DNA from: Actinomycetota bacterium
Lineage (GTDB): Bacteria; Actinomycetota; Actinomycetes; Mycobacteriales; HKI-0501
Assembly: GCA_030840805.1 (NCBI GenBank)
Contig: JAVEDU010000057.1
Span: forward strand, 1-42,195
Reading direction: 5' to 3'
Length of the DNA: 42,195 nucleotides
Position numbers and translations under genes: made by a program. The notes below the pieces were generated by a model that saw only the letters and a program-made list of their open reading frames with translations, was not told where the DNA came from and ran no database searches. Shown here one piece after another: positions 7,992 to 19,852 of the stretch (position 1 is the stretch's first letter; each line of letters opens with the position of its first letter).

Positions 7992-8915
7992 TCAGGACAC
8001 CGGGTCGGTGATCAGCGTGTAGTGCTCGGGCCGGCGGTGCGCGGCGAAGTTGAACAGCGTCTCCTTGTAGACCCGGCAGGCGTCCAGGTCGACCCGGGCG
8101 GTGACCACCTCGTCGTCGTCGGTCGCCGCCTGGGCGACGAGCTCGCCGGACGGCGCGATCACGCACGTCCCGCCGATCTGGGCGACGCCCGCCTCGACCC
8201 CGGCCTTCGCGACGCCGACGACCCACGTCCCGTTCTGGTACGCGCCGGCCTGCATGCACAGTCGATTGTGGAAGTCCGCGAGGCGCTCGGTGCCCGGCAT
8301 CTCCGGGATGAGTGCCGGCGTGTTGTAGCCCAGCAGGACCAGCTCGACGCCCTTCAGGGCCATCACCCGGTAGGTCTCCGGCCAGCGACGGTCGTTGCAG
8401 ATGCACATCCCGACCCGGCCGCCGAACGCGTCCCACACGCCGAAGCCCAGGTCGCCGACCTCGAAGTACCGCTTCTCCAGGTTCTGGTACGGATGGCCGG
8501 GCTGCACCTCGGTGTGCCCTGGCAGGTGGATCTTCCGGTAGTGGCCCACCGTCCGGCCGTCCCGCTCCACCAGGATCGAGGTGTTGAACCGCCGGACCAC
8601 GCCGTCGGGCTGCCGGGTCAGCTCGCCGTAGCCGAGGCAGAAGCCGACCCCGAGCGCGGCGGCCTCGTCGAACAGCGGCCGCACGCCCGCGTTGGGCATC
8701 GACTCCTCGAAGTAGGAGTCCAGCTCGGCCGGGTCCTCGATCAGCCAGTGCGGGAAGAACGGGGTGAGCGCCGCCTCCGGGAAGACGACGAGCTCCGCGC
8801 GCCGGGACGCACCCTCGCGGAGCAGCTCCACCAGCCGGTCCACCGTGGCCCGGCGGCTCTCCGACCGCTGGATCGGGCCCAGCTGGGCGGCGGCGACGAG
8901 CAGGGTGCGCGACAT
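7992..8915 (-). CDS. N-carbamoyl-D-amino-acid hydrolase (nitrilase superfamily)
   Basis: A 307-residue carbon-nitrogen hydrolase. The Glu-Lys-Cys catalytic set is visible: Glu47 in VVFPEAALTPFFPHW, Lys128 in HYRKIHLPGH, and Cys173 in GMCICNDRRWPETYRVM. The segment CNDRRWPE followed by GYNTP and the 304-residue class length are specific to D-carbamoylases, which convert N-carbamoyl-D-amino acids to D-amino acids, ammonia and CO2 in the cytoplasm. It is divergent from the ABC-transporter operon across 173 nt, and the product would feed the D-to-L conversion enzymes encoded there. I chose ATG 8915, preceded by GAGAGG, although the frame is open further upstream. A related beta-ureidopropionase or other N-carbamoyl amide substrate cannot be excluded. 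Confidence 0.85.
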   Translation of the reverse strand: MSRTLLVAAAQLGPIQRSESRRATVDRLVELLREGASRRAELVVFPEAALTPFFPHWLIEDPAELDSYFEESMPNAGVRPLFDEAAALGVGFCLGYGELTRQPDGVVRRFNTSILVERDGRTVGHYRKIHLPGHTEVQPGHPYQNLEKRYFEVGDLGFGVWDAFGGRVGMCICNDRRWPETYRVMALKGVELVLLGYNTPALIPEMPGTERLADFHNRLCMQAGAYQNGTWVVGVAKAGVEAGVAQIGGTCVIAPSGELVAQAATDDDEVVTARVDLDACRVYKETLFNFAAHRRPEHYTLITDPVS

Positions 8916-8984
8916 GTCGGGTCCTCTCCGGAGGCACGGCTGTGGGCATCGTGCCCCGCCGGGAGGCCGCGTTCCTTCGTCCAC

Positions 8985-9015
8985 CCGGACAAGGATCGGT
9001 CCGGATCTTGTCCGG
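8985..9015. promoter_or_regulatory. Inverted repeat in divergent promoter region, candidate operator
   Basis: Perfect 9-nt arms CCGGACAAG and CTTGTCCGG are separated by 13 nt, giving a 22-nt centre-to-centre spacing, close to two helical turns. It lies 69 nt before the carbamoylase start and 73 nt before the ABC ATPase start, as expected for an operator shared by two divergent transcripts. The PucR-type regulator at the far end of the operon is the obvious candidate ligand; that is inference. Confidence 0.45.
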
Positions 9016-9088
9016 GCGGCCATAGGGGCCGGTGCCCCGCGATCTCTACCTTCGGCCTCCACAGGAGACACACGGACGGGGGATCGCG

Positions 9089-10591
9089 GTGACGGCACCG
9101 GTGCTCGCGGTCGAGGCGCTCGGCAAGTCCTACGGGCGGCACCGGGTGCTCGACGACGTGACCTTCCGCCTCGCGGCCGGCGAGACCACCGCGCTGCTCG
9201 GCGAGAACGGCGCCGGCAAGTCCACGCTGGCCAAGGTGCTCGCCGGGGCGGTGCCGCCGGACTCCGGGCGCGTACTCGTGGACGGCAACCCGGTCCAGCT
9301 GTCCAGCCCCCGCGTGGCGCTGGAGCACGGCATCGCGTTCATCCCGCAGGAGCTGGTGTACGTCCCGAAGCTCACCGTCGCCGAGAACGTCTGCCTCGGC
9401 CGGTGGCCGCGTCGCGCGGGGTTCACCTCGGGCGCGGCGCTCCGCCGACAGGCCGCCGCCGAGGCCGAGCGGCTGGGCTTCGACCTGCCGCTCGACCACG
9501 CCATGGACACCCTCACCCTCGCGCAGCAGCAGATGGTGGAGATCCTCAAGGCCCTCGCCCGGCGCTCCCGGGTGATCCTCCTCGACGAGCCGACCGCCGC
9601 ACTGTCCAGTCACGACAGCGAGCGCCTTCTGAACGTCATGACCGGGCTCGCCGCGGACGGCGTCGGCGTCCTCTACATCTCCCACCGGCTGGACGAGGTG
9701 TTCCGCGCCTGCCGCACCGTCCACGTGCTCCGGAACGGCCACCTGGTCCGCTCGTCCGCCGTCGCCGACACCACGCCGCGCGGGGTGATCGAGGACATGC
9801 TCGGCCGCAGCGCCGACGAGGCCGTGGCGCCCACCCGGGACCGAGCGTGGGCCCGGCCGGTCCTGTCGGTCCGGGGCTATGAGCGGGCCGGCCTCCCGCC
9901 GCTCCGCGACGTCTCCTTCGACGTCGGGGAGGGCGAGATCCTCGGCCTGTACGGGGTCCGCGGCGCCGGCGCCGAGGTGATCGCGGAGACGCTCGGCGGC
10001 CTGCACCCCGAGGTGACCGGCGAGACCACAGTGGACGGCTCCCCGGTCCGGACGCTCCGGCGCCCGCTCGCCGCCCGGCGCGCCGGCATCGCGTACGTAC
10101 CGGCGGACCGGAAGTCGCAGGGCCTCGCCCTGACGCTGCCGGTCCAGCAGTCGCTGTCCATGCTGGTGCTCCGGAGCCTCAGCCGGTTCGGCGTGGTCGC
10201 GCGGCGCCGCGAACGGACCGTCGCGGGGAAGCTCGCCGCCGACGTCCACCTCCGGGCCCGCGGCCTCGGCCAGCTCGTCGGCGAGCTGTCCGGCGGCAAC
10301 CAGCAGAAGGTGCTGGTGGGCAGCCGGATCGCGATGCGCCCCAAGGTCCTGGTCCTCCAGGAGCCGACCCGTGGGGTGGACGTCGGGGCGCGCCTGGAGA
10401 TCCACCGGCTGCTCCGCCGGCTCGCCGACGACGGCACCGCGACGCTGCTGGTCACCTCCGACATCGAGGAGGCCGTGAACCTCTCCGACCGGCTCCTCGT
10501 CATCCGCGACGGTGCCGTGGTCAGCGAGTTCCCGCGGCCCGACTTCCGCTCCCAATCCGATGTGCTCCACGCAGCAGGAGGTCTCGACTGA
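9089..10591 (+). CDS. Sugar-type ABC importer, double ATP-binding protein
   Basis: A 500-residue tandem ATPase of the RbsA/MglA (CUT2) class. The first half has Walker A GENGAGKST, a degenerate signature LTLAQQQMVEILKAL and Walker B VILLDEPTAAL. The second half has the usual weakened Walker A (GVRGAGAEV), a proper signature LSGGNQQKV and a Walker-B block ending QEPTRGVDVGA. The asymmetry is normal for the family. It powers uptake with the permease and binding protein that follow; the stop and next start overlap (TGATG). The start GTG 9089 is preceded by GGGGGA; the frame runs upstream but without family similarity. The operon is otherwise wholly amino-acid-derivative enzymes, so the cargo is more likely an acylated amino acid or peptide than a sugar. 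This is inference. Confidence 0.9.
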   Translation: MTAPVLAVEALGKSYGRHRVLDDVTFRLAAGETTALLGENGAGKSTLAKVLAGAVPPDSGRVLVDGNPVQLSSPRVALEHGIAFIPQELVYVPKLTVAENVCLGRWPRRAGFTSGAALRRQAAAEAERLGFDLPLDHAMDTLTLAQQQMVEILKALARRSRVILLDEPTAALSSHDSERLLNVMTGLAADGVGVLYISHRLDEVFRACRTVHVLRNGHLVRSSAVADTTPRGVIEDMLGRSADEAVAPTRDRAWARPVLSVRGYERAGLPPLRDVSFDVGEGEILGLYGVRGAGAEVIAETLGGLHPEVTGETTVDGSPVRTLRRPLAARRAGIAYVPADRKSQGLALTLPVQQSLSMLVLRSLSRFGVVARRRERTVAGKLAADVHLRARGLGQLVGELSGGNQQKVLVGSRIAMRPKVLVLQEPTRGVDVGARLEIHRLLRRLADDGTATLLVTSDIEEAVNLSDRLLVIRDGAVVSEFPRPDFRSQSDVLHAAGGLD

Positions 10592-11592
10592 TGACGGCGG
10601 CGACCCCCACCCTGCCCGACACCACGCCCGAGAGCCGGACCAGCCGGTTCGCGCTCAACGAGGGCACGCTCCGCGGCGTGATCCTGGCGGCCTTCCTCGT
10701 CCTGATCGTGGTGTTCTTCAGCTCGCGCAGCGACGCGTTCTTCACCTCGGACAACGCCCTGAACATCCTGGTGAACGCCAGCGTGATCGGCATCGTGTCG
10801 CTGGGACAGGCGCTGACGATCATCTCCGGCGGCTTCGACCTCTCGGTCAGCGGCACCGTCCCGCTCGGCGCGGTGGTCTACGCGCTGTTGCTGAACGACG
10901 GGTACGGGGTGTTCGGCGCGCTCGCCGGCGTGCTGGTCGCCGGTGCGATCTGCGGGTTCGTCAACGGGCTGATCGTGGCGAAGGCCAACATCAACCCGCT
11001 GATCGCCACGCTCGCGACGATGTCGGTCACCGGCGGTCTCGCGCTGACCATCGCGGACGGCGTGCAGATCCCGTTCGACGACCCCGAGCAGGGCGTCCTC
11101 GCCGAGCAGTCGCTGTTCGGGGTGAACAACCACGTCTGGATCCTCCTGGGCCTGAGCCTGGTGGTGTTCGTGGCGCTGCGGTACACGGTCTTCGGCCGGT
11201 ACCTGTACACGGTGGGCGGGAACCGTGAGGCCGCCCGCCTCGCCGGGATCCGGGTGGACGCGGTGACCACCTGGGTCTACGTGTTCTCGGCCGCGTTCGC
11301 CTCGCTCGCCGGCGCGGTCCTGGCCAGCCAGCTCCTGACCGGCTCGGGCACGGCCGGCACCGACTCCGGCCTCCAGTCCGTCGCCGCCGTCATCCTGGGC
11401 GGCGCCTCGCTCGCCGGGGGCGTCGGCGGGGTGCCCGGCACGCTCATCGGGGTCCTGATCCTCGGGACGCTGGCCAACGGCATGGCGATCATGAGCGTTC
11501 CCGCCTTCTACCAGACCATCGCCACCGGCGTCGTGCTCCTGCTCGCGGTCGGTATCAGCCAGATCCGCCGGATCTCCCGCCGCGGCCGTTAG
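10591..11592 (+). CDS. ABC importer permease (RbsC/BPD_transp_2 family)
   Basis: A 333-residue membrane protein with about eight to ten hydrophobic segments. Family landmarks include SLGQALTIISGGFDLSVSG at ~70, ATLATMSVTGGLALTIADG at ~135, the conserved YTVGGNREAARLAGI cytoplasmic loop at ~205, and VILGGASLAGGVGGVPGT at ~267. This is the CUT2/branched-chain-type fold, in which one permease gene normally gives a homodimeric pore. It shares one nucleotide with the upstream ATPase gene and is followed after 17 nt by the binding protein, so the three form one importer. The cytosolic N-terminus of ~30 residues is polar and Thr/Pro-rich. Confidence 0.9.
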   Translation: MTAATPTLPDTTPESRTSRFALNEGTLRGVILAAFLVLIVVFFSSRSDAFFTSDNALNILVNASVIGIVSLGQALTIISGGFDLSVSGTVPLGAVVYALLLNDGYGVFGALAGVLVAGAICGFVNGLIVAKANINPLIATLATMSVTGGLALTIADGVQIPFDDPEQGVLAEQSLFGVNNHVWILLGLSLVVFVALRYTVFGRYLYTVGGNREAARLAGIRVDAVTTWVYVFSAAFASLAGAVLASQLLTGSGTAGTDSGLQSVAAVILGGASLAGGVGGVPGTLIGVLILGTLANGMAIMSVPAFYQTIATGVVLLLAVGISQIRRISRRGR

Positions 11593-11609
11593 ACGAAAGG
11601 GACAGGCAC

Positions 11610-12737
11610 ATGCGCAAGTCAACCCACCTCGGCGTTCTCGCCACTGCGCTCATGCTCGTGACCGGACTGGCCGCCTGCGGCAGCTCCGGCGGAAAGTCCT
11701 CAGCGGCCGGCGACTTCACGATCAGCGCCGCGAACTACACCGAGGCCGCCGCGCTGTTCCGCGTCATCCACACGAACCTCGACGACGTCATCAAGGCCAA
11801 GGACACCGGCGTCGCGGTGAAGTGGTACGACAACGCGGGTGACCCGGCGAAGATGACGCAGAACGCCCGGCTGATGGTGCAGGACAAGCCGGACGCGATC
11901 GTGATGTACCCGGTCTCCAACACGACGCAGGGCATCGGCAAGATCATCGGCGACAGCAAGATCCCGTGCGTCAGCGTGAACCTCGCGACGCCGAACTGCG
12001 CGTTCCTCAACATCGACAACCGCGCGCTCGGCATCGACTCCGCGAAGATCGTCGGCGCGGAGGCGAAGAAGCGCGGCTGGAACGCCTCCAACACGACCGT
12101 CCTGATCGGACAGAACGCGGCCTCGGGCGAGCAGGTCAACGACTGCGTCCGGTACTTCCACTCGACCATCGCGCCGATCCTCGGGCTGCCGACCGTCGAG
12201 CCCACCTCGATCACCCCGAACATGACCAAGGTCAGCGCGAACGCGATCCAGTTCGACGGCGGCTCGCAGCTCCAGCCCAGCTTCAAGGCCGTGAAGAACC
12301 TGCTGCCGAGCATCCCGAAGAACCACAACATCATCCTGTACACGGTGAACAACGACTCCACGGTCGGTGCGCTCCGTGCGCTGCAGGACGCCGGCCGGGC
12401 CGGGAACGACACCTTGCTGATGGCCGGTCTCGGCGGTGACGAGCAGGGCATCAAGGCGCTGCGCGAGGACCCGCGCTGGGTCGCCGAGGGCGACATCTTC
12501 GTCTCCTGGTGGGGCCAGTACGCGGTGGCGATGGCCCAGGCCCTCGCCAAGGGCGCGAAGCCGCCGGCGGAGGTCACCCTGCTCCCGCAGGTCGTCCTCG
12601 ACAAGAACACCGTGGACACCTACCACCAGCCCGGCAGCGTCGACGTCAAGCAGCTCCCGCCGCTGGTGGAGAGCAACGACTATCTGAAGCAGGGCGGCTT
12701 CCTCCAGGTCGTCGGCAACATCGAGGGGCTCAAGTAA
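11610..12737 (+). CDS. ABC importer substrate-binding lipoprotein (periplasmic-binding class I)
   Basis: A 375-residue protein with a lipoprotein signal: hydrophobic core then LAAC, giving lipidated Cys23. The mature part has the periplasmic-binding-protein I fold seen in ribose, autoinducer and BMP-type receptors: an early NARLMVQDKPDAIVMYPVSN segment, NLATPNCAFLNIDNRALGIDSAKIVGAE near 125, and a C-terminal AGLGGDEQGIKALRED with a WWGQYAVAMAQALAKG helix. Many such receptors bind sugars, but the class also covers purines, amino-acid derivatives and others. The ligand here is unknown; the enzymes encoded next suggest D-amino-acid-containing compounds. The RBS is AAAGGGAC. The TAA stop overlaps the ATG of the serine-hydrolase gene by one base. 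Confidence 0.85.
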   Translation: MRKSTHLGVLATALMLVTGLAACGSSGGKSSAAGDFTISAANYTEAAALFRVIHTNLDDVIKAKDTGVAVKWYDNAGDPAKMTQNARLMVQDKPDAIVMYPVSNTTQGIGKIIGDSKIPCVSVNLATPNCAFLNIDNRALGIDSAKIVGAEAKKRGWNASNTTVLIGQNAASGEQVNDCVRYFHSTIAPILGLPTVEPTSITPNMTKVSANAIQFDGGSQLQPSFKAVKNLLPSIPKNHNIILYTVNNDSTVGALRALQDAGRAGNDTLLMAGLGGDEQGIKALREDPRWVAEGDIFVSWWGQYAVAMAQALAKGAKPPAEVTLLPQVVLDKNTVDTYHQPGSVDVKQLPPLVESNDYLKQGGFLQVVGNIEGLK

Positions 12738-13627
12738 TGGACCGGACGACGACCACCGATCTCATCCAGGCGATCGCGGACCGCTGCTCGGGCAGCCTCT
12801 CGGTCTTCGCCCGCCACCTCGACACCGGCGAGGAGGTGGCGCTGGCGCCGGACGAGATCCTGCCGACCGCGAGCGTCATCAAGCTCCCGATCCTCGTCGA
12901 GCTGTACCGCGCGGCCGCCGCCGGTGAGCTGTCCCTCGACGACCGCGTCACGCTGCGGGACACCGACGCGGTCGGCGGGTCGGGCATCCTCAAGGTGCTC
13001 GGGGTCGGGCTCCAGCCGACCCTGCGCGACCTCGCGACGCTGATGATCGCGCTGTCCGACAACACCGCCACGAACCTCGTCCTCGACGCGCTCGGCGAGC
13101 TCGACGGCGTGAACGCCACGATGGACGCCCTCGGGTTCCCGACGATCCAGCTGCACAACCGGATCGACTTCGAGCGGATCGGCGGCGACGTCCGCAAGCT
13201 GGGCGAGTCGTCCACCCGCGACATGTGCGGGCTCGTCGAGGCCGTGGCCCGCGGGGAGGTCGTCAGCCCCGAGGTGTCGACGACGATCGAGGGCGTGCTG
13301 GAGACCCAGCAGTACCTCGACCAGGGGCCGCGGTACGTGCTCGCGATGCCCTACTGGCGGGAGCTCGGCCAGGACCCGATCATCCGGTACGCCGGGAAGA
13401 CCGGGTTCTTCACCGGCACGCGGGTCGACACCGGCATCGTCCGGTTCGCGGGCGGCGGCGGGTTCACGTACGCGGTCGCGAACCACGGGCTCGCCGACGA
13501 GACGTTCCTGCCGGAGTCCGAGGGCTCGGTGGTGAACGGGCTCGTCGGGAAGGCCCTGGTGGAGCACTGGTGGCCGGCCGACCAGGGCCCCGCCCCGACG
13601 GTGACCACCCCCTATGGAGGTCAGTGA
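12737..13627 (+). CDS. Beta-lactamase-fold serine hydrolase, apparently cytoplasmic
   Basis: A 296-residue protein with the class A beta-lactamase/transpeptidase motif set: SVIK (Ser46-Lys49), SDN at 107-109, and KTG at 221-223. A recognisable omega-loop ExxLN with the deacylating Glu of true class A beta-lactamases is not evident. There is no signal peptide: the protein begins MDRTTTTDLIQAIADRCSG, and its first residues align with the folded domain. It overlaps the genes on both sides by one base, inside a D-amino-acid enzyme operon. I infer a cytosolic amidase or peptidase acting on imported D-amino-acid-containing amides rather than an antibiotic-resistance enzyme. The fold is secure; the substrate is a hypothesis. 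The start ATG is fixed by overlap with the preceding stop. Confidence 0.8.
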   Translation: MDRTTTTDLIQAIADRCSGSLSVFARHLDTGEEVALAPDEILPTASVIKLPILVELYRAAAAGELSLDDRVTLRDTDAVGGSGILKVLGVGLQPTLRDLATLMIALSDNTATNLVLDALGELDGVNATMDALGFPTIQLHNRIDFERIGGDVRKLGESSTRDMCGLVEAVARGEVVSPEVSTTIEGVLETQQYLDQGPRYVLAMPYWRELGQDPIIRYAGKTGFFTGTRVDTGIVRFAGGGGFTYAVANHGLADETFLPESEGSVVNGLVGKALVEHWWPADQGPAPTVTTPYGGQ

Positions 13628-15222
13628 TGGCGCAGCGTCCGATCCTGGTCCGCGGTGCGGACCTCCTCGACGGCACGGGGGCGCCGGCCCGGCCGGCGGA
13701 CATCCTGATCCGCGACGGCGTGGTGGTGGCGGTCGACGCGCCCGGCGTCCTCCCCGCGGGCGACGCGGTCGAGGTCCTGGACGCGGGTGGACGTACGGTC
13801 ACGCCCGGGTTCATCGACGTCCACTCGCATGCCGACAACGCGCCGTTCCTCGGTGACGACGACGTGTCCAAGATCCTGCAGGGCGTCACCACCGAGGTCG
13901 TGGGCAACTGCGGGTTCAGCCTGGCCCCGCGCCTCGACGCGACCGGCGGTGTGATCGAGGACTACAGCCGGCGAATCTTCCCGCCGGTCCCGTGGGCCTG
14001 GCGTACGTTCGCCGAGCTGCTCGCCGCGACCGACGCGGCCGGCTACGTCACGAACTACGCCCCGCTGGCCGGGCACCACGCGCTGCGCATCGCGGCGATG
14101 GGGATGTCCGACCAGGCGCCGGACGCCGACCAGCTCGACCTGATGGGCCGGCTGCTGGACGAGGCGATGGAGGCGGGCGCGTTCGGCCTGTCGTCCGGGC
14201 TGATCTACCCGCCCGGGCTGTTCTCCGAGACCGACGAGCTGCTCACGCTGGCCCGGCGGCTGCCCGCGGGTCGGCCGTACGTCACCCACATGCGGGGCGA
14301 GGGCGCGCAGCTGCTGGCCAGCGTGGCCGAGGCCATCCGGATCGGCGAGGAGTCCGGCCGGCCGGTGCAGGTCTCCCACCTCAAGGCGGCCGGGAAGCCG
14401 AACTGGGGCCTGATGACGGAGGCCATCGCGCTGCTGGACGCGGCGCGCGCCCGGGGCGTCGCGGTGCGGCACGACGTGTACCCGTACACGGCGGGCAGCA
14501 CGATGCTCACCGCCACGCTCCCGCCGTGGTTCCAGGAGGGCGGCGAGCCCAGCGTCCTCCGCCGGCTGACCGACCCGGTGTCGCTCGACCGGCTCCGCGC
14601 CGACCTCGCGGTCAACAGCACCGACTGGGAGAACCTCTCCTATGGCGCCGGCTGGGACGGCGTGGTGATCGCGTCGTCGGCGACCCACACGTACGACGGC
14701 CTGTCCATCCAGGACGTGGCCGCGCAGAGTGGTGGGGAACCGTTCGACGCGCTCGTGCGGGTGCTGCTCGCCGAGGAGCTGAAGGTCAGCATGATCGTGC
14801 ACTCCATGCGGGAGGAGGACCTCGTCCTCGCCCTCACCCACCCCGAGACGATGATCGGGTCGGACGGACTGCCGCCCGGTCTCGGCGGCAAGCCGCACCC
14901 GCGGATGTGGGGCACGTTCCCGCGGATCCTCGCGCGGTACGTCCGGGACCAGGGGCACCTCACGCTGGCCGAGGCGGTGCGGAAGATGACGTCGCTGCCC
15001 GCGGAGACGTTCGGGCTCGCGGACCGCGGCGTTGTCGCGCCGGGCCGGGCCGCGGACCTCGTCGCGTTCGACGCCGGAACGGTGACCGACCGGGCCGACT
15101 ACGAGCACTCGACCCGGGCACCCGAGGGCATCGCCTGGGTGATCCAGAACGGCGAGGTGGTGGTCCGGGACGGGACATTCCTCGGCCGGCGGGCCGGTCG
15201 GCGCCTGCTCCCGGAGGGGTGA
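13627..15222 (+). CDS. N-acyl-D-amino-acid deacylase (D-aminoacylase)
   Basis: A 531-residue amidohydrolase-superfamily enzyme that releases D-amino acids from N-acyl-D-amino acids. It opens with a beta-sandwich segment, then GFIDVHSHADN (metal-site His66 and His68), VVGNCGFS with the bridging Cys95 typical of D-aminoacylases, YVTHMRGEG, QVSHLKAAGKPNWG and IGSDGLPPG, supplying the remaining His and Asp ligands. Length and motif order match the D-aminoacylase/D-glutamate deacylase family. In this operon it would give free D-amino acids for the GNAT enzyme. It overlaps the upstream stop by one base and is followed after 4 nt by the acyltransferase gene. A dipeptidase or hydantoin-type substrate is less likely given the Cys motif. 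Confidence 0.9.
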   Translation: MAQRPILVRGADLLDGTGAPARPADILIRDGVVVAVDAPGVLPAGDAVEVLDAGGRTVTPGFIDVHSHADNAPFLGDDDVSKILQGVTTEVVGNCGFSLAPRLDATGGVIEDYSRRIFPPVPWAWRTFAELLAATDAAGYVTNYAPLAGHHALRIAAMGMSDQAPDADQLDLMGRLLDEAMEAGAFGLSSGLIYPPGLFSETDELLTLARRLPAGRPYVTHMRGEGAQLLASVAEAIRIGEESGRPVQVSHLKAAGKPNWGLMTEAIALLDAARARGVAVRHDVYPYTAGSTMLTATLPPWFQEGGEPSVLRRLTDPVSLDRLRADLAVNSTDWENLSYGAGWDGVVIASSATHTYDGLSIQDVAAQSGGEPFDALVRVLLAEELKVSMIVHSMREEDLVLALTHPETMIGSDGLPPGLGGKPHPRMWGTFPRILARYVRDQGHLTLAEAVRKMTSLPAETFGLADRGVVAPGRAADLVAFDAGTVTDRADYEHSTRAPEGIAWVIQNGEVVVRDGTFLGRRAGRRLLPEG

Positions 15223-15226
15223 GCAG

Positions 15227-16009
15227 GTGTCGGCGGAGCGCGGGGGCGCCGGGACGGCCTGGGCGGATGCCCGGGCGGCGGCGGCTGCCGCCGGGGTGGA
15301 GATCACCGGGTTGACGGGCGCGGACGTGGCGGCCGCCCAGCAGCTGATCGGGGCGGCGTGGGGGCCGCACCAGGTCCCGCAGAGCAACCTGCTGCAGGCG
15401 GTCGCGCACGCCGGCAACACGCTGCTGGTGGCGCGGCGGGAGGCCGAGCCCCTCGGGGTGGTGCTCGGGTTCCTCGGCTGGGCGGGTGGCCTGCACCTGC
15501 ACTCGCACATGACCGCGGTGGTCGCCGGGCAGCAGTCCCGTGGCGTCGGCTACGCGCTGAAGCTGTGGCAGCGGGCGCTCTGCCTGGACCAGCGGGTCGG
15601 CTCGATCCGCTGGACGTACGACCCGTTGATCGCCCGCAACGCCCACTTCAACCTCGTGAAGCTCGGCGCCGACGTCACGGCGTTCCACCCGGACTTCTAC
15701 GGTGCGATGGACGACACCGTGAACGCCGGTGACGCCAGCGACCGGTTCGAGGTGACCTGGGACCTGGGCTCGGACCGGGTGGCCGACGCGGTGGCGGGGC
15801 GGCGTACCGCGGTCGCGGACGTGGCCGGGTCGCTCGCGATCCCGGCCGACTACGACGCCCTGCGGCGGCGCGACCCCGCCGAGGCACAGCGGGTGCGGAT
15901 GCGGACCCGGGAGGCGTTCCAGCGGCTCTGGACCGAGGGGCTGTCGATCGAGTGGTCCGGCGGCCGGTACGTGTTCGTGCGTCAGCCGGTGGGGAGCGTG
16001 CGTGGCTGA
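15227..16009 (+). CDS. GNAT acyltransferase, COG3375 type; putative D-amino-acid N-succinyltransferase
   Basis: A 260-residue GNAT-fold protein. The acyl-CoA-binding loop QQSRGVGYALK is at 102-112, followed by the subfamily hallmark IRWTYDPLIARNAHFNLVKLG at ~127-147. That subfamily (COG3375) is often encoded beside N-succinylamino acid racemase. In Geobacillus kaustophilus the homologous gene product succinylates D-amino acids with succinyl-CoA, making the racemase substrate. That the acyl donor here is succinyl-CoA rather than acetyl-CoA is inferred from context. The first ~25 residues are Ala/Gly-rich and may be a poorly conserved extension. The start GTG 15227 is preceded by GGAGG in the 3' end of the deacylase gene. 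Its end overlaps the M20 gene by 8 nt. Confidence 0.8.
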   Translation: MSAERGGAGTAWADARAAAAAAGVEITGLTGADVAAAQQLIGAAWGPHQVPQSNLLQAVAHAGNTLLVARREAEPLGVVLGFLGWAGGLHLHSHMTAVVAGQQSRGVGYALKLWQRALCLDQRVGSIRWTYDPLIARNAHFNLVKLGADVTAFHPDFYGAMDDTVNAGDASDRFEVTWDLGSDRVADAVAGRRTAVADVAGSLAIPADYDALRRRDPAEAQRVRMRTREAFQRLWTEGLSIEWSGGRYVFVRQPVGSVRG

Positions 16010-17111
16010 GAACCTGATCCTCGACAGCATGCTCGGCGTGCTGGAGGACCTCGTGATGACAGAGACCCCCAGCGACGACCGGGCCCTGCTCGACCAGGGC
16101 ATGCGGCTGACGTCCGCCCTGGTCCACCGGCTGCTCGGCGAGGTGCCGGAGACGCTGGAGTCCGGCGGCCGGCCGCATCTGCGGTTGCGGGGGAGCGCAC
16201 CCCGGCCGGTGCTGCTGCTGTGTCATCTCGACACGGTGTGGCCGGCCGGGACGGCGGCGCGGTGGCCGTTCGCGGTGACCGGGGAGCGGGCGACCGGGCC
16301 CGGGGTGTTCGACATGAAGGCCGGGCTCGTCCAGGGGCTGTACGCGCTCAGCTCGGCCGCGTGCCAGGACGACGTGACGCTGCTGATCACCTCCGACGAG
16401 GAGATCGGGTCGCCGTCCTCGCGGTCGCTCATCGAGGCGGAGGCCCGCCGGTCCCGGGCCGTGCTCGTCCTCGAACCCAGTGCCGACGGCGCGCTGAAGA
16501 CCGCGCGCAAGGGCGTCTCGATGTACCGGCTGAACGTGACGGGCCGGGCCGCCCATGCCGGGCTGGAGCCCGAGCGGGGCGTCAACGCGCTGCTGGAGCT
16601 CGCCCACCAGGTCCGGGCGGTGGCCGCGCTGACCACCGACGGGACCAGCGTCACGCCGACCACCGCGACCGCCGGGACGACGACGAACACCGTGCCGGCC
16701 CACGCGGAGCTGGCCGTCGACGTCCGCGCCTGGACGGTCGCGGAACAGGACCGGGTGCACCGGGCCCTGACCGGGCTCCGCCCCGCGCTGGCCGGCGCGG
16801 CGCTCCGGCTCGACGGCGGCATCAACCGGCCGCCGCTGGAGGCCGTCCGCTCGACGGTCCTCGCCGGAGTCGCGGAGGAGTGCGCCGCGTCGCTCGGGCT
16901 GGCGCCGCCCGGCCGGGCCGCGGTCGGCGGCGCGTCCGACGGCAACTTCACCGCCGCGCTCGGAGTCCCGACCCTGGATGGTCTCGGCGCCGTCGGCGGG
17001 AACGCCCACGCCGAGGGCGAATGGCTGGACGTCACCACGATCACGGATCGGACCGCGCTGGTCCGGGCGCTGCTGGAGCGCCTCACCGGTCCGGAAGGGG
17101 AACCCGCATGA
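16002..17111 (+). CDS. M20 metallopeptidase/deacylase; putative N-succinyl-L-amino-acid hydrolase
   Basis: A 369-residue M20-family protein. The di-zinc site residues are visible: His75 and Asp77 in CHLDTVW, Asp104 in GVFDMKAG, the Glu pair at 133-134 in SDEEIGS, a Glu in LEPSADG near 160, and a C-terminal His in GNAHAEGEW. The insertion pattern of a dimerisation domain between is normal, and similarity is closest in feel to glutamate carboxypeptidase (CPG2) members. In the known D-to-L pathway an M20 enzyme cleaves N-succinyl-L-amino acids to L-amino acid and succinate; gene order GNAT-M20-racemase supports the same role here. The start GTG 16002 lies inside the end of the GNAT gene. The stop overlaps the racemase ATG (ATGA). 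Confidence 0.85.
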   Translation: MAENLILDSMLGVLEDLVMTETPSDDRALLDQGMRLTSALVHRLLGEVPETLESGGRPHLRLRGSAPRPVLLLCHLDTVWPAGTAARWPFAVTGERATGPGVFDMKAGLVQGLYALSSAACQDDVTLLITSDEEIGSPSSRSLIEAEARRSRAVLVLEPSADGALKTARKGVSMYRLNVTGRAAHAGLEPERGVNALLELAHQVRAVAALTTDGTSVTPTTATAGTTTNTVPAHAELAVDVRAWTVAEQDRVHRALTGLRPALAGAALRLDGGINRPPLEAVRSTVLAGVAEECAASLGLAPPGRAAVGGASDGNFTAALGVPTLDGLGAVGGNAHAEGEWLDVTTITDRTALVRALLERLTGPEGEPA

Positions 17112-18214
17112 AGCTGGAAGCCGTGGAGCTGCGCCGTCTGGACGTGCCGCTGGTCCGGCCGTTCCGCACCTCGTTCGGGGTGCAGACACACCGCGACGTC
17201 CTGCTCGTCCGGGTGCTCACCGACGAGGGCGAGGGTTGGTCGGAGTGCGTCGCGCTCGCCGACCCGGTGTACTCCAGCGAGTACGTGGCCGGTGCGCAGG
17301 CGGTCCTGACCGGCCACCTGCTGCCGCGGCTGTTCGCGGCCGCGGACCTGACCGGGCGGTCCGTCGCGCCCGCCCTCGCCGGGGTGATCGGGCACCGGAT
17401 GGCGAAGGCCGCCGTGGAGACCGCCGTCCTGGACGCGGAGCTGCGCTCGTACGGCATCTCGCTCGCCCGGTACCTCGGCGCGGAACGGTCCCACGTGGAG
17501 TGCGGGGTCTCGGTCGGCATCGCGTCCTCCGTCGATGCCCTGCTGGCGGAAGTCCAGTCCTATGTGGACCAGGGATACCGACGCATCAAGCTGAAGATCC
17601 AGCCCGGCTGGGACGTCGAGCCGGTGCGCGCGGTGCGGGAGGCGTTCGGGCCGGACCTGCCGCTGCAGGTGGACGCGAACACCGCCTACGACGCGGCGAC
17701 GATGCCGCGGCTGCATGCGCTGGAGGAGTTCGGGCTGCTGCTGATCGAACAGCCGTTCGTCGAGGAGGACCTGCACCAGCACGCCGTGCTGTCCCGGCAG
17801 ATGCGTACGCCGGTCTGCCTGGACGAGTCGATCGTGTCGGCGGCCGTCGCGGCGGACGCGATCAACCGTGGCGCCTGCAGCATCGTCAACGTGAAGGCGG
17901 GCCGGGTCGGCGGGTACCTGGAGTCCGTGCGGATCCACGACGTCTGCGCCGCGCTCGGCGTGCCGGTGTGGTGCGGCGGCATGCTGGAGACCGGGCTCGG
18001 CCGGGCGGCGAACCTGGCGCTCGCGGCCCTGCCGAACTTCCGGCTCGTCGGGGACACCTCGGCCTCGGACCGGTACTTCGCCGAGGACCTCACCGAGCCG
18101 TTCGTGCTGGTCGACGGCAGGCTGCCGGTGCCGACCGGGCCCGGGGTGGGCGTGGACCTGCGGAGGGACGTGGTGACCGCGATGACGCAGAGCACGGAGA
18201 CGGTCCGCCCCTGA
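17108..18214 (+). CDS. N-acylamino acid racemase / o-succinylbenzoate synthase-like (enolase superfamily)
   Basis: A 368-residue enolase-superfamily enzyme. All catalytic residues fall at the positions known for the Amycolatopsis N-acylamino acid racemase: Lys161 and Lys163 (KLK), metal ligands Asp189 (VDANTAY), Glu214 (IEQP) and Asp239 (LDES), and the second base Lys263 (NVKAGRVGG). The family is bifunctional with MenC; I see no menaquinone genes here, while an acyltransferase and two deacylases precede it, so racemisation of N-succinyl-amino acids is the likely job. It is translationally coupled to the M20 gene by ATGA and is the last gene of the operon. A 55-nt palindrome lies 18 nt after its stop. 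Confidence 0.9.
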   Translation: MKLEAVELRRLDVPLVRPFRTSFGVQTHRDVLLVRVLTDEGEGWSECVALADPVYSSEYVAGAQAVLTGHLLPRLFAAADLTGRSVAPALAGVIGHRMAKAAVETAVLDAELRSYGISLARYLGAERSHVECGVSVGIASSVDALLAEVQSYVDQGYRRIKLKIQPGWDVEPVRAVREAFGPDLPLQVDANTAYDAATMPRLHALEEFGLLLIEQPFVEEDLHQHAVLSRQMRTPVCLDESIVSAAVAADAINRGACSIVNVKAGRVGGYLESVRIHDVCAALGVPVWCGGMLETGLGRAANLALAALPNFRLVGDTSASDRYFAEDLTEPFVLVDGRLPVPTGPGVGVDLRRDVVTAMTQSTETVRP

Positions 18215-18232
18215 TCGGTGCGCCCACCCTCC

Positions 18233-18287
18233 CGTGATCACCACCGCTTTCCGGGGTCAGAGCGCCGAAAAGGCGGTGGTGATCACG
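18233..18287. terminator. 55-nt palindrome between convergent genes, likely bidirectional terminator
   Basis: Outer arms CGTGATCACCACCGC and GCGGTGGTGATCACG are perfectly complementary over 15 bp, with a partly paired interior containing GAAAA and CTTTCC. It sits in the short space between the racemase stop and the convergent regulator stop. The TGATCA near the outer edges recalls the 61-nt repeats at 3201 and 27368, but the rest differs. Confidence 0.65.
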
Positions 18288-18292
18288 AGGAA

Positions 18293-19852
18293 CTACGTCA
18301 GCAATCGCAGCTGGAGCGACGCCATCAGCCGCTCGCTCGGGTCCTCCAGGTCCATCCCGGTGAGCTCGGTGATCCGCCGGAGCCGGTAGCGCACCGTGTT
18401 CGGGTGGGTCTGCAGGGCCTGCGCGGCGGCCCCGACATCCCCGAACCGGTCCAGGTACTCCCGCAGCGTCTGGAGGAGCGCGGTGTCCAGCCCGGCCACC
18501 CGCCCCGCCCGCAGGTGCTCCCGCTCGCGCAGCACGTCGAGGATCTCCAGCACGTTGGCCTGCGCGCGCACATCGTCCAGCGTGGCGACGGACTCCGCGG
18601 TGGGCTCGCGGAGCAGCACCCGCAGCACCCGGTCCGCCTCGCGGCGCGCCCGGGCCACCCCGTCCGCCGACGGCACGGGCGCGCCGATCCCGGCCAGGAC
18701 CCGGGCCCGGACCGCGTCGCTCACCCGCCGGGCCGCGTCCCCGGCGAAGCGCCGCAGGTCCTCCGGGCGCTCGATCGGGAGCACCGCGTACACCCGCGGG
18801 CCGACGTCCACGGTGAGGGTGCCGCGGTGCAGCGTGGAGCAGTACAGGTCCACGACGCCGAGCAGCCGCTCGGTGGGCACGCCGCCGCCGGGCACCTCGA
18901 ACGCCACCACGGCGTACGTCGCGTCGTGGTCGATCCCCAGCCGCACGGCCACGAGGTCGGGCGCGGAGCCGCCCTCGACCAGCTCCCGGACCAGTGCCCG
19001 CCGGGCCGTCGACTCCTGGAGCAGATCGAGCCGGTGCCGGACGATGTGCAGCGCCGCGGTCTGCGCCGCTTCCCGCAGGATGCGCTCGTGGTCCGCGACC
19101 AGCGGGCGGCCCGCCTCGGCCACCCAGATGAAGCCGAGGATCTCGCCCGCGGCACGCACGCTCACGGCCACCCGCGCCCGTAGCCCGACGTCGGGTACCG
19201 CGTCCATGTGCACGATGTCGTCGCCGGACAGCAGTCGCCGCAGCACGCCCTTCTCCTGGATCAGCCGGGTGTACCGCTGCGGGACCTGGCGGCCGAGGAT
19301 CGTCTCCTTGCGCGGTTCGTCCACCTCGCCGTCGTGAGTGGAGTAGGCGAGCACCCTCGACTGTGGATCCTCGATGGTCACGGCGCCGGCGATCTCGGCG
19401 GCCAGCACGCTCGCGAACGCGAACAGGTCGCCGAGCGCCACCCCGGCGACCTCCTGCCGGCGGCCGGTGCCGATCCCGACGCGGAGCATCGCCGCGAGGT
19501 GCACCCACGGGACGTCCAGCGGGGACGCCAGCAGCGCGAGCCCGTGCCGGCGGGCCTCCTCGCCCAGCGCCGCGGGGAGCGGGCCGGTCGTGTGCAGCAC
19601 AACGGCCGAGTACCGGCGCTCGGCGGCCTCGTGCAGCACGGCGGGCGCGGCCGGGGAGCCGGGGTCCACCCCCACGGCGAGCAGCACCTCGTCCGTACCG
19701 GCGGGGATCGGGTACAGCGGGTCGTGGATCGTCACGCCCGCGACCGGCCGGTCCAGTCCCGCACCGGCGGAGGCGACGGTGAGCAGACCCGGGCCGAGCC
19801 GGCCGAGCACGTCCCGCACGGTCAGGGCGGGCTCGTTCGGTGCGTGGTGCAT
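18293..19852 (-). CDS. PucR/CdaR-type transcriptional regulator
   Basis: A 519-residue regulator. The N-terminal PucR domain (LTVRDVLG, then VAGVTIHDPLYPIPAGTDEVLLAVG) spans roughly residues 8-130. A central ligand/GAF-like and GGDEF-like region includes VAVSVRAAGEILGFIWVAEAG-type sequence. The C-terminus carries the PucR helix-turn-helix: LLQTLREYLDRFGDVGAAAQALQ then HPNTVRYRLRRI. Such regulators control purine, allantoin, amino-acid and sugar-acid breakdown. Its convergent placement at the end of the D-amino-acid operon makes that operon and the carbamoylase the probable targets, possibly via the inverted repeat at 8985-9015; this is inference. I chose ATG 19852; no clear RBS is visible, so the message may be leaderless. 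Confidence 0.85.
   Translation of the reverse strand: MHHAPNEPALTVRDVLGRLGPGLLTVASAGAGLDRPVAGVTIHDPLYPIPAGTDEVLLAVGVDPGSPAAPAVLHEAAERRYSAVVLHTTGPLPAALGEEARRHGLALLASPLDVPWVHLAAMLRVGIGTGRRQEVAGVALGDLFAFASVLAAEIAGAVTIEDPQSRVLAYSTHDGEVDEPRKETILGRQVPQRYTRLIQEKGVLRRLLSGDDIVHMDAVPDVGLRARVAVSVRAAGEILGFIWVAEAGRPLVADHERILREAAQTAALHIVRHRLDLLQESTARRALVRELVEGGSAPDLVAVRLGIDHDATYAVVAFEVPGGGVPTERLLGVVDLYCSTLHRGTLTVDVGPRVYAVLPIERPEDLRRFAGDAARRVSDAVRARVLAGIGAPVPSADGVARARREADRVLRVLLREPTAESVATLDDVRAQANVLEILDVLREREHLRAGRVAGLDTALLQTLREYLDRFGDVGAAAQALQTHPNTVRYRLRRITELTGMDLEDPSERLMASLQLRLLT

Follow-up and report, generated by a model that had tools for sequence, protein, structure and literature searches.

An actinobacterial operon predicted to link uptake and hydrolysis of D-amino-acid compounds to D-to-L inversion

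Results

The sequence under study (hereafter, the window) is one whole contig, 42,195 nucleotides long, from the 4.46 Mb genome of an Actinomycetota bacterium – the one genome of its genus in our comparison. Gene calls combined open reading frame (ORF) and codon-position analysis with Pfam and NCBIfam scans, and coding status is backed by the codon GC pattern and, for the racemase and the PucR regulator, by protein matches. We identified a ten-gene locus that comprises eight plus-strand genes forming one operon (from 9032, or an alternative start at 9089, to 18214), a divergent D-carbamoylase gene, and a convergent gene for a PucR-family regulator. The operon encodes the three components of a ribose-type ABC importer, a serine hydrolase with a class A beta-lactamase fold (BLA), a D-aminoacylase, a COG3375-type GNAT, an M20 hydrolase, and a racemase. 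Within the importer part, the ATPase and permease genes overlap by 1 nt, a 17-nt gap separates the permease gene from that of the substrate-binding lipoprotein (SBP), and the SBP and BLA genes overlap by 1 nt. Within the enzyme part, the BLA and D-aminoacylase genes overlap by 1 nt, a 4-nt gap precedes the GNAT gene, and the M20 gene overlaps both the GNAT gene (8 nt) and the racemase gene (4 nt). A first-pass annotation had described all of these genes as overlapping or nearly abutting, with a D-carbamoylase and a PucR regulator at the flanks; ORF and Pfam/NCBIfam analyses confirmed the genes, their coordinates, and their strands, with the carbamoylase divergent and PucR convergent behind a hairpin.

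The divergent promoter region contains a long, perfect inverted repeat, CCCGGACAAG-13 nt-CTTGTCCGGG (8984–9016). A palindrome search allowing up to two mismatches found it to be the sole such site in its own genome, and it is conserved just partly in G825, a genome from another order of the same class. We consider this repeat a weak candidate for an operator. At the opposite end of the operon, a hairpin with 18-bp arms (18233–18287) is probably a terminator common to both convergent genes. The PucR-family regulator (18293–19852, minus strand; PF13556, PF17853, PF07905) has identically placed orthologs (57–59% identity) in both G825 and Pseudonocardia, and the locus is probably under its control.

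The importer consists of an ATPase with two ATP-binding domains of the ribose/arabinose type (9032–10591), a permease (10591–11592; PF02653), and the SBP (11610–12737; Peripla_BP_4), orthologs of which are 65–79% identical. Pfam and NCBIfam place the components in the ribose/CUT2 type and detected no SBP_bac_5, Dpp/Opp, or amino-acid-type parts among them; by sequence, the window importer lies outside the known amino-acid and peptide importer families. Ribose-type importers are best known for sugars. Relatives of the window importer elsewhere, however, adjoin genes for other amide hydrolases (M81 with PF13354, M20, or amidase), favoring an amide over a sugar as the ligand, and we infer that the substrate is an external D-amino-acid compound. 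The AlphaFold model of the SBP (pLDDT 46, from a three-sequence alignment) was too poor for comparison, and no ligand was therefore proposed from structure. On the Aureimonas plasmid pAU20b (L167:5810–11891), the same importer family occurs with a PF13354 hydrolase, and an M81 (MlrC-type) metallopeptidase takes the place of the inversion genes.

Besides the M20 enzyme, the locus encodes three hydrolases. The N-carbamoyl-D-amino-acid hydrolase (D-carbamoylase, nitrilase superfamily; 7992–8915, minus strand; PF00795) is identical to the solved enzyme 8i99 at 186 of 304 positions (61%; E 1e-123) and contains the catalytic Glu-Lys-Cys within the motifs FPEA, YRKIHLPGH, and CNDRRW; we regard this assignment, made from alignment and motifs, as solid. 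Its G825 ortholog (76% identity) occupies the same divergent position. No hydantoinase gene was found within the window, and the genome encodes just two sub-cut-off relatives, on other contigs. The D-aminoacylase (N-acyl-D-amino-acid deacylase; 13627–15222) aligns with the solved D-aminoacylase 1m7j over most of its length (E 4.5e-89), with the metal-ligand motifs HSH, NCG, THM, SHLK, and SDG in place.

BLA (12737–13627; PF13354) contains the SxxK, SDN, and KTG motifs and lacks a signal peptide. Against NCBIfam it scores highest with the class A beta-lactamase model, yet the 77 bits fall far short of the 200-bit cut-off, and the equivalents of E166 and N170 – aligned by eye – are D and I, apparently not conserved. 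On the score and these seemingly missing residues, we rejected its assignment as a class A beta-lactamase conferring beta-lactam resistance. BLA's second-best solved relative is 2j7v, which we take to be the cyanobacterial PBP-A. PBP-A is a dd-carboxypeptidase/endopeptidase (PMC11189452). BLA seems more likely to be a D-peptidase/amidase than a resistance enzyme, though the hydrolases of the window could serve unrelated substrates.

The last three genes of the operon encode the GNAT, the M20 hydrolase, and the racemase. The N-succinyl/N-acylamino acid racemase (17108–18214) is identical to the Amycolatopsis N-acylamino acid racemase 1sja at 227 of 353 positions (64%). All six catalytic residues claimed for it in the first-pass annotation are present (the Lys pair K161/K163, D189, E214, D239, and K263), and its Lys-Lys bases and metal ligands are those expected of the NSAR/OSBS family. 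The 260-residue GNAT (15227–16009) matched no Pfam or NCBIfam family and no PDB sequence significantly, so assignment to a family from sequence alone was dropped and structure used instead. Its AlphaFold model (pLDDT 93.9, from an alignment of 45 sequences) matches GNATs in the PDB by Foldseek. Its homologs adjoin racemase genes, among them a Priestia GNAT encoded beside menC (28% identity over 89% of the length, E 2e-20). Its annotation as a GNAT is thus borne out by homologs and the predicted fold rather than by a family model, and we propose that it is a succinyl-CoA:D-amino acid N-succinyltransferase.

The M20 metallohydrolase (16002–17111; PF01546, PF07687), a proposed N-succinyl-L-amino acid hydrolase, groups with carboxypeptidase G2 (CPG2) and has its metal-ligand motifs in place. 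Priestia, rather than Geobacillus kaustophilus, provided the Bacillota reference for GNAT and M20. The Priestia M20 is a TIGR01891 amidohydrolase that is hardly alignable to the CPG2-like enzyme of the window. The window protein, earlier called an M20 deacylase, therefore belongs to the M20 family but falls in the CPG2 branch rather than that of the Bacillota GNAT-menC partner; sharing the Bacillota branch is not known as a defining feature of the GNAT-NSAR-M20 pathway.

We next examined whether these genes travel together across genomes, and found that they do at three levels – the whole locus, the importer-GNAT block, and the general plan. The full ten-gene set recurs in G825 at 59–79% identity, identically arranged and divided between two contigs. 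One (C227) carries the SBP, permease, and ATPase genes, divergent from the D-carbamoylase gene; the other (C256) carries the hydrolase, D-aminoacylase, GNAT, M20, and racemase genes, with PucR convergent. Because both contigs end at the SBP/BLA junction, we infer that they are adjacent. A close D-carbamoylase occurs in 2 of the 395 genomes of the class, exactly those with the locus (the window genome and G825), and is thus confined to a rare variant.

Parts of the locus persist elsewhere. Two freshwater actinobacteria (L035, L036) have most of the gene set, with an importer-BLA-D-aminoacylase-GNAT operon standing apart and a second GNAT together with racemase and M20 elsewhere in the genome. 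Two Pseudonocardia loci (L033, L037) keep GNAT-M20-racemase-PucR and only remnants of the hydrolase; these BLA fragments (L033:9626–9910, L037:571–723) lie directly upstream of the intact GNAT-M20-racemase genes, suggesting that the front part of the operon was lost. Genome G538 retains a relic of the importer operon (L174:6769–10701) in which a deletion fuses ATPase residue 217 to SBP residue 268 and the GNAT match stops at residue 177; no racemase was found in this genome. In a metagenome-assembled genome from another phylum, Dormibacterota (L034:9863–12976), a GNAT-M20-racemase set resembles that of the window (racemase 76%, M20 61%, and GNAT 58% identical), possibly through horizontal transfer or a binning error.

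Among 40 GNAT loci of the order, 37 include a racemase, 25 a PucR regulator, and 24 an M20 enzyme. Further genes at these loci encode S12 hydrolases (22), oligopeptide SBPs (20), S9 peptidases (14), amidohydrolases or D-aminoacylases (11), and PF13354 proteins (7–8). None of the 40 control stretches, drawn from the same genomes, contained the surveyed hydrolases, racemase, M20, or PucR. Racemase, importer, and an extra hydrolase co-occur at 19 of the 40 GNAT loci versus none of the 40 controls – figures that indicate linkage rather than exact probabilities, as the Fisher tests ignore genome relatedness and some query proteins were picked from GNAT loci. All seven inspected genomes whose GNAT lacks an adjacent racemase encode one elsewhere. 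These counts show that actinobacterial loci repeatedly combine uptake, hydrolysis, and D-to-L inversion, with the importer usually of the oligopeptide type. The GNAT-racemase pair also occurs in Priestia and on Deinococcus and Sulfitobacter plasmids.

Other neighbors vary. In Microbacteriaceae (L039–L053; Cryobacterium, Agromyces, and relatives), a saccharopine-dehydrogenase-like protein repeatedly precedes the GNAT, as does an FAD-dependent (DAO) oxidoreductase in several. At five actinobacterial loci (L058, L060, L062, L077, L086), M20 and GNAT-racemase are transcribed divergently, and some of these have an XPB-type DNA helicase gene nearby.

Discussion

The GNAT, racemase, and M20 enzyme reportedly form a succinyl-CoA-driven, irreversible D-to-L amino acid pathway in G. 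kaustophilus (Sakai et al., 2006). The window likewise encodes the three together, and we propose the same three steps for it. It differs in adding an importer, three presumed D-amino-acid-releasing hydrolases, and PucR, and in its CPG2-branch M20. The DgcN-DgcA D-glutamate pathway proceeds by N-acylation, enolase-superfamily racemization, and deacylation of a D-amino acid. Its chemistry is that of the route proposed here, but the acyltransferase and racemase subfamily differ, and the window racemase scores 99 bits against the DgcA model (cut-off 400 bits). The DgcN-DgcA pathway is mentioned in PMC10845958. Industrial hydantoinase/amidohydrolase cascades mix D-carbamoylase, acylases, and NSAR (PMC7431475); these are artificial enzyme mixtures, whereas the window is a natural locus without a hydantoinase gene.

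Similar in overall plan is a cluster on Deinococcus ficus plasmid pDFI1 (L169) that encodes a racemase, a GNAT, a peptide ABC importer, an S12 hydrolase, an amidohydrolase, and a dipeptidase. Its amidohydrolase is 38% identical to the window D-aminoacylase, but its importer is of the oligopeptide type, its serine hydrolase belongs to PF00144 rather than PF13354, and the stretch read contains no M20 gene. Literature searches, with subscription journals mostly not covered, returned no description of the combined locus. The earlier suggestion that it is undescribed stands in that sense, but the plan itself is common across Actinomycetota, and Deinococcus has a comparable set. Our analysis upheld the operon structure and the enzyme assignments, and the gene neighborhood proved to be conserved; the lack of linkage that the first-pass annotation had named as a refuting outcome was not observed. 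The idea of an unusual combination did not hold up. Since the plan is recurrent, we consider the window a variant, set apart by its rare type of importer, its D-carbamoylase, and its M20 from outside the Bacillota branch: the inversion core was already known, and the exact gene set is a rare variant.

We propose, with a probability of roughly 70% and on the basis of homology and gene order, that the locus, probably under PucR control, serves the catabolism of D-amino-acid-containing amides by a route that ends in succinylation-driven inversion. The importer would take up a D-amino acid compound in acylated, carbamoylated, or short-peptide form. In the cytoplasm, BLA may cut D-peptide or D-amide bonds, and, judging from their homologs, the D-aminoacylase and D-carbamoylase would free D-amino acids from N-acyl and N-carbamoyl forms, respectively; the order in which these hydrolases act is our conjecture. 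The GNAT would then N-succinylate the D-amino acid with succinyl-CoA, the racemase would interconvert the N-succinyl-D and -L forms, and an L-specific M20 would remove succinate, drawing the route irreversibly toward the L-amino acid. Arguing against this scheme are the usual association of the importer family with sugars, the departure of the M20 enzyme from the Bacillota branch, and the low identity (28%) of the GNAT to its Priestia homolog. Going further, the locus might be a self-contained, conserved pathway in which a recruited ribose-type importer and a PBP-A-like D-peptidase, D-aminoacylase, and D-carbamoylase feed one inversion line; it would then be one version of a general module for D-peptide catabolism in actinobacteria, in which importers and hydrolases can be exchanged – an extension that we put forward tentatively, at below even odds.

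Other readings assign the same genes different roles. The racemase and M20 might act directly on imported N-acyl or N-carbamoyl amino acids and degrade both enantiomers, much as industrial amidohydrolase processing does, with the GNAT in a side role. The substrate range of this racemase family does include compounds with N-acetyl, N-carbamoyl, or other N-acyl groups (PMC7431475), and the D-aminoacylase and carbamoylase have those substrates in common. Such a scheme would, however, make needless the racemase's most faithful partner (37 of 40 loci), and it would leave the free D-amino acids yielded by the D-aminoacylase and D-carbamoylase to be returned to the racemase by the one protein of the locus able to do so, the GNAT; we judge it unlikely. 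Only slightly less probable in our estimate is that the locus handles muropeptide-derived D-amino acids and D-peptides during peptidoglycan turnover, with BLA as a D,D-peptidase. The kinship of BLA with PBP-A fits this, as does the recurrence of S12 and PF13354 hydrolases and oligopeptide importers at loci with the trio, but BLA has no signal peptide, and D-carbamoylase and D-aminoacylase have no specific fit to muropeptides. Read as a statement of the natural substrate, a cell-wall source is compatible with the catabolic, succinylation-driven route that we favor.

We consider it highly improbable that the locus serves catabolism of, or resistance to, a beta-lactam-like or other xenobiotic amide. 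The SxxK, SDN, and KTG motifs and the best NCBIfam match would accord with a beta-lactamase, but the sub-cut-off score, the cytoplasmic location, the apparent lack of conservation at positions 166 and 170, and a neighborhood of D-amino acid metabolism all argue against it.

N-succinyl/N-acylamino acid racemases are known chiefly from biotechnology, and a catabolic route ending in succinylation-driven inversion would provide them with a physiological role that can be tested. It would also single out a family of cytoplasmic hydrolases with a beta-lactamase fold and a probable role in D-peptide use, and offer a source of new enzymes for making chiral amino acids. More broadly, our results suggest that a single inversion line, fitted with front ends that can be exchanged, allows many actinobacteria of soil and fresh water to feed on D-amino acids and D-peptides.
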